Positions 11,003 to 16,989 of a stretch of 21,157 nucleotides of DNA are shown here, in pieces (within the stretch, counting starts at the first letter, position 1; every line of letters starts with the position of its first letter). The notes under the pieces are model-generated. The model did no database searches and had not been told where the DNA came from. It was given only the letters and a program-made list of their open reading frames with translations. Source of the stretch: a virus; IMG/VR virus record IMGVR_UViG_3300005663_000220, positions 1-21,157 of that record. The stretch is one strand, 5' to 3'. Position numbers and translations under genes: made by a program.

Positions 11003-12532
11003 TTATTCATTATCTTCTGTAAAGTATTCTGGGTATTCCTCTTCCATTTCTTCCACTGTTTCTTGTATTCTATCCCAGTCCTGTTCTTTTAAAGCTGTCA
11101 GTAGATCCGCTCCGAATTGATTTCTTGGTGCCAGAGGCATCCGAAATGGCGAAGCCCCTCCAGGAGTTCCAGGAGGTCCGAAAACATCGTCGCTGTCATC
11201 CGCATCCATGTTGTTCTTTTCAATATCATGATCCAAGCCCATCTTACCTTGCCAAGTCTTTTTGCTAACCGCCTTATACTTAAATAATATCTCGAACGCC
11301 TTTGCTATTTTCTCTAAATCGGCCAGGATCATCGGCGGAAATTCAACCCGCGACTTCGTGCTGGTGCCTTTTGGCAGTTCGCCCGAATCAATCGAAGCCT
11401 GAACAACAACGGCAAAAAGATTCCTGTAAAATGTCGAAAAGAAATCCTGCCAGTCTTCTATCTCTCTCACGAACGGATTCTGGGCTATCAAACTGCTTGA
11501 GTAGTTGGCATTTGAGTAGTCCGCAGTCAAGATCATCTCCGGGAAGCCTACTGCGGCTGCAATCGCAAGCAATATGGCTCTACCATCCGCCTCAACATCA
11601 GAAGCATTAATATTAGGAGTCAACAACTCGTACTCCACGCCCTTGCTCGAATGAATCACTGTTCCGGCACTAAAAGCCTGCTGTCGTTTCTTGGTAGCAG
11701 ATAATTGATCGCTCATATTCTCATCTCTTATCTGTTTCAACTTCTGACTCGAAGTATCATACTTCTTAATCAAAGCTATTGCAGTACGAATCTTGTTCAA
11801 GACAATTCTGTCTTCCAACCATCCCTCATATTGCTTCAACCTTCTGGCGATTACCCTCAATTGGGAAATGCCCCGCTTTTCGTCCGAATCAGCAAATATC
11901 TTTATGTGTATTATCTCTTCGGCCTTAAATGCTTCGCTAAAGGTGCCGTCAGCCTTGGTCTTGTAATACAACAGTGGAGTTTCTATATCGTCCACCTTGG
12001 TCATGATTCCGTGGGTCACGTTTTCCGGCAATTTCTTGTCATTCGGATTCCGTATCATGCCCGCCCTGATAAACCTTATCTTCACTGTTCCATCATTCTT
12101 GTTTATGAACAATCTCAGGAATACTTCGCCGTCCCTGAACGTCCTCCGGGCTATTTCCTTTTCACGAATGTTGAAATTGTTCTCTTCTTTGAAATCATCC
12201 CATATTTCCTTCACCTTTTCGTTTTCGGCTTCGGGTATCACCAACGGCCCTTTACCCAAGGTGAATTTTACCAGGTTCCTGATGACAGCTCGCGCATGCG
12301 GGTTGGTGTGGTAGAAATTATAAGCCGATTCCAACATACTCCTATGGTCTTCTTCTGTTACCCCACCATCCAAACCCAAAGGAATCCAGCCGGACAATGC
12401 ATCCTGGTCTACGACTACATTACGGGCTTCCAATGCCTTGTCAATGGTCTGTATTGCCGCATCATATTGAGAAGCTACTAATTCTGCCTCTTTTATCCTC
12501 AACTTTCTTTTTGCTCTGTATAATTTAAACAT
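11003..12532 (-). CDS. Portal protein (509 aa)
   Basis: The length, place next to the terminase and MuF genes, and sequence fit a phage portal of the lambda gpB / SPP1-like class. Residues about 68-100 (SAYNFYHTNPHARAVIRNL...) form the usual N-terminal helical start. REKEIARRTFRDGEVFLRLFIN is the conserved wing strand. IIHIKIFADSDEKRGISQLR holds the family's G-x-S/P-x-L segment. A long helix with RLKQYEGWLEDRI and then the PNINASDVEADGRAILLAIAAAVGFPEM region form stem and crown. The C-terminus is acidic (EEMEEEYPEYFTEDNE). Twelve copies form the ring through which DNA enters. AGGAGATATT precedes ATG 12532. Confidence 0.88.
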   Translation of the reverse strand: MFKLYRAKRKLRIKEAELVASQYDAAIQTIDKALEARNVVVDQDALSGWIPLGLDGGVTEEDHRSMLESAYNFYHTNPHARAVIRNLVKFTLGKGPLVIPEAENEKVKEIWDDFKEENNFNIREKEIARRTFRDGEVFLRLFINKNDGTVKIRFIRAGMIRNPNDKKLPENVTHGIMTKVDDIETPLLYYKTKADGTFSEAFKAEEIIHIKIFADSDEKRGISQLRVIARRLKQYEGWLEDRIVLNKIRTAIALIKKYDTSSQKLKQIRDENMSDQLSATKKRQQAFSAGTVIHSSKGVEYELLTPNINASDVEADGRAILLAIAAAVGFPEMILTADYSNANYSSSLIAQNPFVREIEDWQDFFSTFYRNLFAVVVQASIDSGELPKGTSTKSRVEFPPMILADLEKIAKAFEILFKYKAVSKKTWQGKMGLDHDIEKNNMDADDSDDVFGPPGTPGGASPFRMPLAPRNQFGADLLTALKEQDWDRIQETVEEMEEEYPEYFTEDNE

Positions 12533-12540
12533 AATATCTC

Positions 12541-13140
12541 CTAATTCTCAAAATAAAATCTGATAATACTTTTAAATGTTTTCTTTAAATTAAAATACGT
12601 TTGTTGGGTTAATCCATGATCTTTAGTATGTCTGCCACTTTTAGGTTGAGGATGCATGGACAATAAAGCATCGTCCCAAACTATTCTATGCTCTTCTGGT
12701 AAAATATTTCTTATCTTTTCTAAATCTATCCAAGCGATATATTCATTTTCTGGATTATAACAATATATGATAGATTTTTCTGGTGGAACAAATATATTTT
12801 GTTGCGACAATTCGTTTACTTGTTTAATATTATAATTTTTCTTACTTTTATGAATTCTTTGGTGACAAGACCAACAAAGTATTATAACATCTTTTCCAAT
12901 AACCTCTTTCCCTAAGTTTTCATAATTAATATGATGTAATTGCAGTCGATATTTCTTATCACAAATATAACATTCGTAATTATAAAATACTAAAGCCTTA
13001 CTTCTTAAATTACTCCAATGTTTAGTCTTTTGGTAATGTTTATAATACCAATCTCTTCGATTATTATATTCTTTCCTATAATCCTGGAATACTATTTTAT
13101 TATTTATTTCAAAAGGAACTATATATTTCATTTTACCCAT
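12541..13140 (-). CDS. Free-standing HNH homing endonuclease with sigma-like C-terminal domain (199 aa)
   Basis: The core is a zinc-HNH nuclease: C57xxC60, LQLHH (H69, H70), then LC89WSC92HQRIH97. It makes DNA breaks that favour spread of its own gene. The last 60 residues (139-199: L..IRNILPEEHRIVWDDAL...GLTQQTYFNLKK..SII) align with the last 60 of the sigma-like neighbour (131-190), sharing P-E-x-H-x-x-V-W-D-D-A, a later H-x-K, G, Y and I-I. This could serve as the DNA-binding part. The gene is AT-rich, has only a weak ribosome site (ATG 13140 or the ATG three codons later), is preceded by a perfect palindrome, and lies 8 bases before the portal start, as expected for an insertion. Confidence 0.85.
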   Translation of the reverse strand: MGKMKYIVPFEINNKIVFQDYRKEYNNRRDWYYKHYQKTKHWSNLRSKALVFYNYECYICDKKYRLQLHHINYENLGKEVIGKDVIILCWSCHQRIHKSKKNYNIKQVNELSQQNIFVPPEKSIIYCYNPENEYIAWIDLEKIRNILPEEHRIVWDDALLSMHPQPKSGRHTKDHGLTQQTYFNLKKTFKSIIRFYFEN

Positions 13141-13147
13141 TTAATTT

Positions 13148-13165
13148 TATATTATGTATAATATA
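13148..13165. repeat. Perfect AT palindrome upstream of HNH gene
   Basis: TATATTAT, a 2-base centre, then ATAATATA: an 8+2+8 inverted repeat 8 bases before the HNH start codon. It contains TATTAT/TATAAT-like hexamers on both strands, so it could be a private promoter or operator of the inserted gene. It could also be an AT hairpin lowering its translation. Confidence 0.45.
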
Positions 13166-13191
13166 AAAACAAAACACCTATATTCTAAAAT

Positions 13192-13764
13192 TTATCTACC
13201 AAGTATTAACTTTATTATTGGTATATAGCCGGCCTTAACCTTATTGTAAGCATTGTCGCTCATGCCTACGTTTTTTGATTTATGCCTATACCTATCGGCG
13301 GAACTTAAAGATGATACCGCATCATCCCAAACCATCAAATGGGTTTCAGGCACAACTGCTCTAAACTGTTGCAGGGTTAAGAGCTTCTCGAAGGTTCCAT
13401 CTATCGGACTAACGCCCAAAGACATTATTTCCTTCAACTCATCAATGGGTATCCTGACCTTATCCTTCTTGGCATACCGGTTCATCATGTAATATCTGCT
13501 ATATTTATAGAAATGGGATATTACTGAATAATGTTCCTTATAATTTTCCAAGCAGAACAGGAACACATCAAAGCTTAACGACAACATCTCATCTTGCTCT
13601 TCAAACCTGCTCCATTTCACTACGAATGACCTAATCCACAGGAGCATATCCTCCATCATGAGTTCATATAAATCATTCCTGACCTTTATCCTCCTATGCT
13701 CCTGCTTATAACGGTTAAATTTTAGTATCAACTCTTGACATTTGTCTTCTGTTTCTTTGTTCAC
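13192..13764 (-). CDS. Sigma-factor-like helical DNA-binding protein (190 aa)
   Basis: Residues about 35-100 (EDMLLWIRSFVVKWSRF..QDEMLSLSFDVFLFCLENY, then FYKYSRYYMMNRYAKK) follow the helix pattern of sigma-70 region 2. That means a DEM acidic start, a run of hydrophobic helix positions, and an aromatic/basic helix like the -10 recognition helix. Residues 131-190 (LQQFRAVVPETHLMVWDDAV ... GMSDNAYNKVKAGYIPIIK) sit where region 4 would be, and GMSDNAYNKVKAG resembles a helix-turn-helix GISxxAVxxxxxR. It may direct transcription of late genes; a small-terminase role is also possible, given its place between terminase and portal. The ATG at 13764 is 10 bases past the previous stop. The sigma call is by pattern only. 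Confidence 0.6.
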   Translation of the reverse strand: MNKETEDKCQELILKFNRYKQEHRRIKVRNDLYELMMEDMLLWIRSFVVKWSRFEEQDEMLSLSFDVFLFCLENYKEHYSVISHFYKYSRYYMMNRYAKKDKVRIPIDELKEIMSLGVSPIDGTFEKLLTLQQFRAVVPETHLMVWDDAVSSLSSADRYRHKSKNVGMSDNAYNKVKAGYIPIIKLILGR

Positions 13765-13774
13765 TTTATTTTCC

Positions 13775-13951
13775 TCATTTTATTTCTTTGTATTCCTCCT
13801 GTAATATTTCGCCGATTCTATTTAGAGTACCTGCCACGTTACAGCTTTTACAAACCGTAGGGTCGGCTCCCGTCAGTTGATCATTTGAACATATGCATGG
13901 TTTATTTATCAATTTACTAAATATATTTATTAACTCTTCTGTTGATTTCAT
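13775..13951 (-). CDS. Small Cys-rich protein (57 aa)
   Basis: The start is ATG 13951-13949, which overlaps the terminase stop as ATGA; GGGAGG lies nine bases before it. A longer version from further upstream would run through the terminase 3' end and is unlikely. The protein has an N-terminal helix (MKSTEELINIFSKLI), then KPC-IC...TVCKSCN, two CxC/CxxC knuckles that suggest a small zinc site, and a C-terminal helix (LNRIGEILQEEYKEI). Function unknown. Translational coupling to terminase suggests a packaging or late-gene link. Confidence 0.72.
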   Translation of the reverse strand: MKSTEELINIFSKLINKPCICSNDQLTGADPTVCKSCNVAGTLNRIGEILQEEYKEIK

Positions 13952-16900
13952 GACCAAAATCCTCCCGTGCTTTCTTCCCAAATCGGCTGGAATTCCTCCT
14001 TCAGGTAAGGTATCACCGACGATACGGCGTACCTGTCGCAGTCCATCCCGTGGTCGTCCATCTTCATCGGCTCCTTCTGATTCACCTTTCCATCCTGCGT
14101 CCTCTTGAACTTATACTGAGCAAATTCCACGTCGGAGCCGACCAACTCTATCTCATCGCAGTCCAGGTAATCGTCCATCATGTAAAAATAGGCCTTGTTG
14201 CCCGCAAACTGCAGATGTGCCCTGACCTTGTCTATCCCATCGACCACGGCGTTGTCCGCCTCCAGAGTCGCCACCCCGTAAAGCTCCTCCAGGTCTATCC
14301 GGCTCTGCTTGGCCGAAGGATCTGCAAATATAGGCATATACGGGCTGTAGTTGGGCGAAGCCTTTATCTTTTCCGCATGGGCCTCCATAGTATCCCCGCC
14401 AGACCGGTACTCATAACTGACATAGAAGGTTATCTTCGACCGGATCATCTCGTCATACTCGGATTCTTCGACCTCTTTTTTGAATTTCTCAACATCCAGC
14501 AGATATTCCTTGTACACAAACGGATGCCCAGGACTTGAGCCAAAATCAATAGCCCCTATATAATAAGGATCTTCCACAAAATGTTTGTCAGTCTTTTCTT
14601 CCGTCTTTTGTGGCCTCCTTATCATATGTTTGTCCTTATTCCAGTATTTACCATAAACAAACAGCTCCCTGCTCGGACGCTTGCACTCCCACTGAGCTTC
14701 CCAGGTATCCTTATCTAAAGTAACCACCTTATCAATGAAATCGTCTATCTTGAAATATCCTTCACAGGAATGGGCCCTGCCCTTACACACTTCATATGCA
14801 GCGCATGCGCCCCAATACTCGTCATCTATGCATTCCCGATCACATTTCTCCAACACCTCCCAGATGCACCACTTGTATATCTTATACCCGCCTCTTTTCC
14901 TCTTTTCCTTCGAAGCCATCTCCAATAACCGCTGCATGGTGCCCGCTTCACTTTTTCTTGTCGAATTATGGAGAACAATGCCTCCGGCTACTACAAAATT
15001 ATGATGGTCTTCTACTTCAATATCATAAACGTCTTCTATCCCGGCATATTCGACAGAAACCACTTCATGATTATTGTTATTTATTCCATGATGCCTTATA
15101 TTAGCAGCCTTTCTCATTCTATTGCTTAAATAATCGTCCCTTTCTATAAACTGCCATTGCATCTTGGATTGTTCTGATTTCGTTCTAATTTTTATTCCTA
15201 AAGACTCTAAAGCCCTCTTTATTATTCCATCAGTATAACCAGTAATGTTTACAATCTTTGATAATGATAAACCTTGATTTTCATACATAGAAATAATATC
15301 AAAATTTTCTATAAGATCATTTACTTTGGTTATTCCTCTTAATAAATTATTTTTAATGGTTCCTATTCTTATTTTGTCTATTGCTTTTTTAGTATGTTCA
15401 CCTCCAAGAAATCCTTTTGGATGATCTTCATAAGAAATACCAAACATGGGATTTTTATCTCCGGCTAATTGCCCCTTTAAAGAATTAGATCTTTTTATTC
15501 GGGCTTCTTCAGTATGTCCTTTCTGAGAAGCCAAACACATTTTCTCATAATCATCTATCCATAATTGTTTGCCATTTTCTGAAAGAATTTTCCTTCTTTT
15601 CTCTTGTTCTTTAGGATCTCCCTTTTCCCAAAAATCTTTAACCCATTGACCAAGAATTCTACCATTTTCTTTTAACTGCTTTTTAGTACTTGGACAATTT
15701 GCATGTATTTCCATATGATCATTTATGATTAACTTTTGTAAATTATCAGGAAGGTCATTATATGAATCAAAATCCTTATGATGAATATGTTCTTTTTTAG
15801 AAGGCCAAATTCCTGATGTTTTTCCGTATACATAATAGTATTCTGGAACATATTTACTATGTTTCCCTTTTTCACTCAGATCTATATAATGATAATTGCC
15901 TTTAAGCTTTCTATTAAAACACATTAAGGAATCGTTTTTCTTCAATTCATTAATTTGTTTATATTCCCCATTTTTTAATAGAATCAAATGATCTTCTGTA
16001 GCCTTTAAACTATATTCTATATCTCCATCCTTATAAGTTAATTTATAAACCTTGTCTGTTTTCGTTTTCCAAATATTCTTTATTTTTTTAAGAGTAAATC
16101 TATTTGCCCTATGAGAAAAACAATAAGCATATAATTCTTTTCCATTATCGAATTGTTTTTTAAGCTCCATTAACGGAACACCATCAGGATAATTTCGTTT
16201 ATCTCTTGGGACATCAATCAAAGTATCCCCAGTAATGCAGGATAAGACGTTTTGAGCCATGATATCCTTTTGCGTGACATAGGACTCCGTCGTCATGACC
16301 ATCGAAAGCCCCTCTTGTAAGACATCCCAGGCCATCAACTCTACTTCGTCGATCCTGACCTTGTGCGGATGGGGAGAATTGAATCCCGCTATCGTTCCGG
16401 TGATTACTTCCAGAAAAGCACCGTTGGTATAGAAGGTGTTCTTCATTGTGGGTGGTTTGCGAGGCATTATAAGCTCCGCCAGGTAATCGTTCCTGTTATG
16501 AAACCCTACGAAGTATCTATAACACTTGCTTGCCTGTTCTTTAATAGCCCCAGCCGAGGCTATCTCACATCCAGGCTTAAAGGCCATGTCCAGGTGGTTC
16601 AGTATGGCCATATTGGTGGTCTTACCCCCAATCCTGTTGGCAAACGCTATAGAGTTCCGGGTTTTCTCGAAGAACATATCGCACATGAAGGTAAACGGAC
16701 TGACATGATCCCGGCAGAAGTTCTTTCTGGGTATATAGTGTCCCAGGAACAACCTTATGTAAAAATGTAGGATATCCGGGTACCGTATGCCGTTCTCTAT
16801 AAAGCTGTTGAACAACGCATCGTAATACTGGGCCTGGTCTTCCCTTGATAAGAACTCTTCGACGATGTTATTGATCGTTTCGTTATGCTTCTTGGAATCC

Positions 16901-16989
16901 CTGTTGTAAACGTCCTTCGACATGTTGTTGAATTCCATTATCCCGTTAGCAAGACGTTCCGTGCTTGATTTCTTAATTTTTTTTGACAT
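13948..16989 (-). CDS. terL: Terminase large subunit with in-frame intein (1013 aa precursor, 588 aa after splicing)
   Basis: The packaging motor and nuclease. ATPase domain: R119-IGGKTT (Walker A with GGK123T) and KVRID214E215 (Walker B with catalytic Glu). The coupling motif S250/S676-T is split by the intein. After the ATPase comes a Cys-rich insert (C708, C716, C720, C729, C735, C742), probably a zinc knot. The RNase H-like nuclease has AID815FG, FAD890PSA and a C-terminal DDHGMD983CD985RYAV. It cuts the genome concatemer and drives DNA through the portal using ATP. The start ATG overlaps the previous stop (TAATG) with AGGGA upstream. The host part is less AT-rich than the intein, showing the intein is younger here. 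No clear small-subunit gene is next to it; one may be among the upstream small genes. Confidence 0.9.
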   Translation of the reverse strand: MSKKIKKSSTERLANGIMEFNNMSKDVYNRDSKKHNETINNIVEEFLSREDQAQYYDALFNSFIENGIRYPDILHFYIRLFLGHYIPRKNFCRDHVSPFTFMCDMFFEKTRNSIAFANRIGGKTTNMAILNHLDMAFKPGCEIASAGAIKEQASKCYRYFVGFHNRNDYLAELIMPRKPPTMKNTFYTNGAFLEVITGTIAGFNSPHPHKVRIDEVELMAWDVLQEGLSMVMTTESYVTQKDIMAQNVLSCITGDTLIDVPRDKRNYPDGVPLMELKKQFDNGKELYAYCFSHRANRFTLKKIKNIWKTKTDKVYKLTYKDGDIEYSLKATEDHLILLKNGEYKQINELKKNDSLMCFNRKLKGNYHYIDLSEKGKHSKYVPEYYYVYGKTSGIWPSKKEHIHHKDFDSYNDLPDNLQKLIINDHMEIHANCPSTKKQLKENGRILGQWVKDFWEKGDPKEQEKRRKILSENGKQLWIDDYEKMCLASQKGHTEEARIKRSNSLKGQLAGDKNPMFGISYEDHPKGFLGGEHTKKAIDKIRIGTIKNNLLRGITKVNDLIENFDIISMYENQGLSLSKIVNITGYTDGIIKRALESLGIKIRTKSEQSKMQWQFIERDDYLSNRMRKAANIRHHGINNNNHEVVSVEYAGIEDVYDIEVEDHHNFVVAGGIVLHNSTRKSEAGTMQRLLEMASKEKRKRGGYKIYKWCIWEVLEKCDRECIDDEYWGACAAYEVCKGRAHSCEGYFKIDDFIDKVVTLDKDTWEAQWECKRPSRELFVYGKYWNKDKHMIRRPQKTEEKTDKHFVEDPYYIGAIDFGSSPGHPFVYKEYLLDVEKFKKEVEESEYDEMIRSKITFYVSYEYRSGGDTMEAHAEKIKASPNYSPYMPIFADPSAKQSRIDLEELYGVATLEADNAVVDGIDKVRAHLQFAGNKAYFYMMDDYLDCDEIELVGSDVEFAQYKFKRTQDGKVNQKEPMKMDDHGMDCDRYAVSSVIPYLKEEFQPIWEESTGGFWS
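14965..16239 (-). mobile_element. HNH-bearing intein in the large terminase (425 aa)
   Basis: The intein begins at C1 of CITGDTLIDV and ends VLHN with the +1 residue Ser 676, a complete set of splice residues. Block B is KAT81EDH84. HIHHKD (from residue 151), N166 and H175/H179 in a DLPDNLQKLIINDHMEIH pattern make an HNH nuclease, and GDKNPMFG with HTKKAIDKIRIG looks like NUMOD-type DNA-binding repeats. Block F is YDIEVEDHHNFVVAGGI. It removes itself from the protein and can copy its DNA into intein-free alleles. It interrupts the conserved ATPase coupling motif, a typical essential site for inteins. Confidence 0.92.

Follow-up and report, generated by a model that had tools for sequence, protein, structure and literature searches.

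A predicted HNH endonuclease of an uncultivated phage ends in the C-terminal domain of the sigma-like protein family encoded at its insertion site

Introduction

A homing endonuclease has to locate a single site that is conserved among related genomes, and the origins of the DNA-binding parts of such enzymes are mostly unknown. The add-ons known from HNH enzymes are zinc fingers, AP2 domains and NUMOD-type modules, none of which is known to come from the product of a neighbouring gene (PMC2988022, PMC10448857). A nuclease can nevertheless carry a domain related to a protein of its target. In Odn (Gp88) of phage ICP1, a RepA_N domain is 42% identical to the RepA of the target (PMC8263062, PMC10448857) and brings the nuclease to the matching origin, making it an origin-directed nuclease (PMC8263062). 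Additionally, an endonuclease may act on its own gene, as I-TevI does by binding its own late promoter, a measured interaction that results in autorepression of the endonuclease (PMC2988022).

The present analysis deals with a 21,157-base virus fragment from IMG/VR (IMGVR_UViG_3300005663_000220), hereafter the window, in which a predicted HNH endonuclease gene lies beside the gene of a sigma-like protein. The module carried by this nuclease plainly stems from the protein family of the insertion site. The preferred reading, given about an even chance of being right, is that of a free-standing homing-type HNH endonuclease whose DNA-binding module came from the sigma-like family of the locus where the gene inserted. 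The locus also draws notice to that family itself, which is unnamed in Pfam and PHROGs and is encoded between terminase and portal genes in uncultivated phages.

Organization of the locus

The minus strand of the window encodes, in this order, a terminase large subunit with an intein, a small open reading frame, the sigma-like protein, the HNH protein and the portal protein (Table 1). Both reading frames named in the first-pass annotation, those of the HNH protein and its sigma-like neighbour, are present as described there.

Table 1. Features of the terminase-portal region of the window
Feature	Position	Strand	Description
Portal protein	11003..12532	-	Pfam Phage_portal_2, E 1.3e-28; flanks the insertion site
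HNH endonuclease ORF	12541..13140	-	199 aa; N-terminal ~110 aa HNH domain and ~84 aa tail
HNH tail	12544..12795	-	Residues ~116-199, strongest 136-195; homologous to the sigma-like C-terminal domain
Spacer, sigma-like stop to HNH start	13141..13191	-	51 bp, very A+T-rich
Inverted repeat TTTATATTAT-AC-ATAATATAAA	within spacer	-	
Motif GTTTTGTTTTTATATTAT	13158-13175	-	In spacer; common to the sigma-portal gap of relatives
Sigma-like protein	13192..13764	-	190 aa, GTG start; C-terminal domain at residues ~103-190
Small ORF	13775-13981	-	Between terminase and sigma-like genes
Terminase large subunit with intein	13948..16989	-	Intein splicing domain, E 9.6e-15; upstream flank

Relatives of the locus were found by alignment searches with the portal and sigma-like families; single-sequence scans with the HNH or the sigma-like protein gave no matches. 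In ten IMG/VR relatives (L003, L004, L005, L006, L020, L027, L028, L029, L033 and L035) the terminase and portal genes directly flank the sigma-like gene, and no HNH gene is present there. The distance from sigma-like gene to portal start is 47-93 bp in these records, with an overlap in L006. The sigma-like C-terminal domain is encoded a single time in nine of the relatives' records and twice only in the window. The earlier proposal that the HNH gene is an insert is borne out by these ten HNH-free relatives, in which sigma-like and portal genes stand side by side, and comparison of the records thus places the insertion between these two genes. As is typical of free-standing homing endonucleases, the gene lies between conserved genes here and its site is empty in relatives; such presence and absence among phages suggests that it is mobile.

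Other intervening elements were observed in the same region. The terminase intein of the window comprises ~415 aa between NVLS and STRK, contains an HNH-like endonuclease region and, according to the alignment, is not present at the same position in the ten relatives. The terminase of L005 (2389-4533) carries a different, short intein at the Walker A motif (NRTGGK / TVDI), and the 891-aa portal protein of L029 (4636-7311) has an apparent large intein (C...SDMKTEVLTEFG to ILVSGN/SNANYS) in the conserved ADYSNANYSS motif. Furthermore, HNH genes with NUMOD3-like repeats follow the portal gene directly in L027 (5525-6271), L007 (9421-10407) and L008 (9259-10347), and the downstream side of the portal gene is thus a second nuclease hot spot in relatives.

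The conserved motif in the sigma-portal gap

The gap between sigma-like and portal genes contains a T-rich motif with TATAT, resembling TTTTTCTTTTTATATAAT in the relatives. The motif search scored 83.7, the highest value in eight shuffled sets being 73.5. With leave-one-out position weight matrices, the gap site ranked first in five of nine records (L003, scanned over 100 kb; L035, over 52.6 kb; L027; L005; and the window) and was weak or not top-ranked in the other four (L028, L020, L029 and L033). The window motif lies 17-20 bp upstream of the HNH start. The HNH gene is thus placed between motif and portal gene, because the motif precedes its start and its stop codon, as the junction sequence shows, ends 8 bp before the portal start codon. 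The gap motif may be a promoter, an operator or another kind of site. A multi-copy late promoter was considered and dropped, the motif being essentially single-copy in whole-record scans.

The motif often has inverted-repeat character (L003, L005, L027, L035 and the window). A T4-style RNA hairpin in the spacer is not supported, as the inverted repeat folds no better than shuffled sequences (z 0.34).

A nuclease domain with a tail shared with the neighbour

The N-terminal part of the HNH protein belongs to the HNH family, matching Pfam HNH with 22.5 bits (cut-off 21.4; E 1.3e-4) and PHROG HNH families with E values down to 1e-10. The motif is laid out as CxxC, HHINY, CxxCH and H, the catalytic residues (C57, C60, H69, H70, C89, C92, H93 and H97) are intact, and the motif residues are invariant in comparison with HNH proteins of isolate phages.

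The remainder of the protein resembles the end of the sigma-like neighbour. A BLASTP comparison of the two gave 17 of 58 identical (29%) and 33 of 58 positive positions (57%) in a gapless alignment, with E 2e-9 for this single comparison. Moreover, a hidden Markov model of the C-terminal domain, built from the sigma-like proteins of eight other phages with the window sequences left out to avoid circularity, gave a 60.0-bit match covering residues 136-195 of the HNH protein, equivalent to E ~1e-14 in a database of nominally one million sequences. When the sigma-like protein of the window was added to the model, the score of the real tail was 61.9 bits, whereas none of 5000 shuffled versions exceeded 10.2 bits; the resemblance of the two C-termini is thus not due to chance. 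Against a profile made from 11 sigma-like proteins, the tail scored 60.0 bits, more than the two distant full-length members L154 and L155 (47.3 and 39.3 bits), these two being long branches and the profile being made from portal-locus members. Judged from its sequence, the tail is thus a member of the family formed by the C-terminal domains of these sigma-like proteins, and the HNH protein is a well-supported chimeric phage endonuclease. The profile similarity on which the first-pass annotation had made its claim of a shared C-terminal domain depend is therefore present. The annotation put the shared part at the last ~60 residues; the homology is real, but it covers ~84 residues because it extends upstream into the linker, where HNH residues ~115-135 (NIFVPPEK...NPEN) match V.LP..EL...PEN (permutation p 0.005).

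The AlphaFold2 model of the tail has three helices, with pLDDT 79.6 overall and about 90 in the helices, and that of the sigma-like protein (pLDDT 85) has three C-terminal helices at matching positions. The tail retains six of eight invariant and four of nine highly conserved columns, and the true member L029 does no better in a leave-one-out comparison. Because conserved columns are kept about as well as in L029, the tail fits a folded domain that is under some constraint and evolving faster.

This bears on the main rival to a targeting role, namely passive capture of a gene end, which is regarded as somewhat unlikely. The nuclease gene would have landed inside a sigma-like gene with its frame reading into the leftover 3' end, giving a tail that plays no part in targeting and DNA that serves at most as a recombination arm. 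Insertion upstream and read-through predict what is seen at the ends, where the shared piece reaches the last residues of both proteins, and fungal mitochondria offer examples of endonuclease reading frames inserted beside a duplicated 3' end of a gene (PMC3630166). The tail is also the longest branch among portal-locus family members in the trees, as after relaxed constraint. However, it retains six of the eight core columns invariant in 11 sigma-like proteins, its three-helix layout and open frame persist despite great divergence, and its DNA identity to sigma-like genes is too low for a good recombination arm here.

Identity of the sigma-like protein

The neighbour is called sigma-like on the ranking of its predicted fold, in which no match is statistically significant. 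The ten best PDB matches of the model are all sigma factors, with AlgU first (probability 0.87, best E 0.3); sigma factors likewise rank high in a viral structure library, and the isolated region 2 of sigma-E aligns to the model at 3.6 A. Profile methods recovered no such relationship. Pfam gave no match for six members of the family, a separate comparison with PF08281 gave none, and PHROGs profiles do not recognise the family either. The protein did not match the sigma region 2 and 4 profiles that mark the sigma-70 family, and hhalign against RpoE and FecI was not significant (probability 0.1), though region 2 was aligned in register.

The shared C-terminal domain is termed region-4-like by its position. 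In both the tail and the sigma-like models the second helix of the region 4 helix-turn-helix is short or absent, and the tail model alone had no fold match and recovered no sigma factor. As to the earlier assignment to sigma region 4, the full-length model ranks sigma factors first, but Pfam, hhalign and the fold of the tail alone yield no match. No relatives of the sigma-like protein were found in isolate phages or, in one scan, in genome contigs. Because the distant members L154 and L155 have no terminase or portal gene nearby, the family is not confined to the terminase-portal locus.

Rarity of the tail among HNH proteins

Among the best 80 of 109 HNH relatives retrieved from IMG/VR (78-295 aa), none has the sigma-like domain on its C-terminus. 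Many of these 80 bear other, unrelated C-terminal extensions, so that such tails are exchangeable modules. Except at the locus of the window, no extension matched a non-HNH reading frame in the fetched loci of the best 80 of 109. Isolate phages encode HNH relatives of ~100 aa, and the five that were opened all lack this tail. An HNH-sigma fusion was not found in the open-access literature either. The fusion in the window is the single case found, and its description as unusual holds within the best 80 of 109 HNH relatives and the open-access literature; the domain is not one that recurs in many unrelated HNH proteins, the finding that the first-pass annotation had set against its own view.

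Four of the HNH relatives (L054, L082, L097 and L105) have in common an unnamed C-terminal domain of ~90-125 aa, which ends in a stretch with the look of a helix-turn-helix (RYRVILEYI..GF..SMISKVYKNP).

Composition and origin of the tail

The HNH gene differs markedly in base composition from its surroundings. Third-position GC content (GC3) amounts to 19% in body and tail alike, compared with 48% in the sigma-like gene, 50% in the portal gene and ~61% in the terminase exteins; foreign composition of this kind is frequent in homing endonucleases, though not defining. The terminase intein, with GC3 21%, is as low as the HNH gene, so the phage has acquired more than one such element. In the core of the domain, the tail is 26% identical to the sigma-like protein of the window and 23-35% to the other ten. 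Its best BLAST match is L028 (41% over 56 residues), and its own neighbour stands mid-table (29% over 58). Because the tail is no closer to its neighbour than to other members, and because of its GC3 of 19% against 48%, it is not a recent copy of the sigma-like gene of this phage. Domain trees of 10, 12 and 14 rows do not place the tail, and AU tests reject no placement. AT-rich relatives exist, with sigma-like GC3 of 20-27% in L020, L033, L035 and L005, and the simplest and more likely reading is that a ready-made fusion came from such a relative; long divergence within this phage with drift towards A+T is a less likely origin. The suggestion that the nuclease acquired the 3' end of the invaded gene is accordingly upheld as to the family, the tail coming from that of the locus, but not as to a recent copy from this phage.

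These values also weigh on other histories. It is improbable that the sigma-like gene received a new C-terminus from the element and that the HNH tail is the displaced native one. The order of parts agrees with that of the atp6 gene of Allomyces and the atp6, atp9, cox2 and nad3 genes of Glomus, in which the 5' part of the gene and a C-terminus are followed by the endonuclease reading frame and then by another C-terminus (PMC3630166). The copy behind the endonuclease should then be the native one and the closest to relatives; here it is the sigma-like copy that is closer to them (26-54%, as against 23-35% for the tail), and the GC3 of the tail is HNH-like, not phage-like.

Local tandem duplication of the phage's own sigma-like 3' end, followed by insertion of the HNH gene into it, is very improbable. 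The two copies lie 50 bp apart and have the domain in common, but the tail is no closer to the phage's own gene than to those of other phages, its composition differs, and a clade of tail and own sigma-like protein is unsupported (p-AU 0.08-0.13, which is not a rejection).

Region-4-like domains can bind RNA polymerase, and this counts for a further explanation, a highly improbable one, in which the HNH protein, far from being a selfish element, serves the phage in packaging or regulation and uses the shared domain to contact RNA polymerase or the sigma-like protein. HNH proteins beside terminase genes act in packaging in other phages (cited in PMC6316719), but the HNH gene is missing at the locus in all ten relatives and its composition is strongly deviant.

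Proposed mechanism

According to the preferred reading of a homing-type endonuclease with a module from the sigma-like family, the AT-rich HNH gene would be a recent arrival, inserted in the leader between the sigma-like and portal genes of a tailed phage. In an earlier, AT-rich relative, a nuclease gene would have joined, in frame, the 3' portion of that phage's sigma-like gene, and the fusion of nuclease and tail would subsequently have moved as a unit. The conserved motif of the sigma-portal gap is probably read by the sigma-like protein, and the tail, as a putative DNA-binding module, would keep the nuclease on or close to it. HNH-free relatives would then be cut at the gap, and the gene copied in by repair. 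The tail may also bind the motif upstream of the HNH gene and damp its own transcription, by analogy with I-TevI.

The first-pass annotation had offered, as one option, a shared DNA-recognition domain that guides the endonuclease to the sites of the sigma-like protein, and the sequence comparisons leave this plausible. A stronger version, in which the HNH enzyme steers itself by a sigma-region-4-like, promoter-reading module that binds the gap motif and cuts rival phages at the switch of their head genes, is considered unlikely.

Comparison with known systems

Several described systems share features with this locus. Free-standing HNH genes of T4-like phages likewise occupy an intergenic gap between conserved genes and are missing in relatives, and the T4-like MobA-E and HNH-AP2 enzymes carry their catalytic domain and their add-on at opposite ends (PMC2988022, PMC10448857). 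As with I-TevI, the endonuclease reading frame is immediately preceded by a promoter-like motif, which the add-on helical domain could bind. The fungal hybrid genes (Allomyces atp6; Glomus atp6, atp9, cox2 and nad3) resemble the window in having the C-terminus twice, the second time behind an endonuclease; the copy in that place is the displaced native one in fungi, whereas in the window it is divergent, AT-rich and in frame with the nuclease (PMC3630166).

The likeness to Odn lies in the joining of a homing-type endonuclease domain to a DNA-binding domain homologous to a DNA-binding protein of another element. In the window, too, the added and presumably DNA-binding domain is homologous to that of the protein that would own the presumed target site. 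Odn, however, pairs a GIY-YIG-like (T5orf172) nuclease with RepA_N at the N-terminus, and its action against a satellite has been tested, whereas the arrangement in the window, as read from sequence, combines an HNH domain with a C-terminal sigma-like domain beside the related gene. If the tail binds the gap and the nuclease cuts there, target-directed chimeras like Odn would extend beyond satellite warfare.
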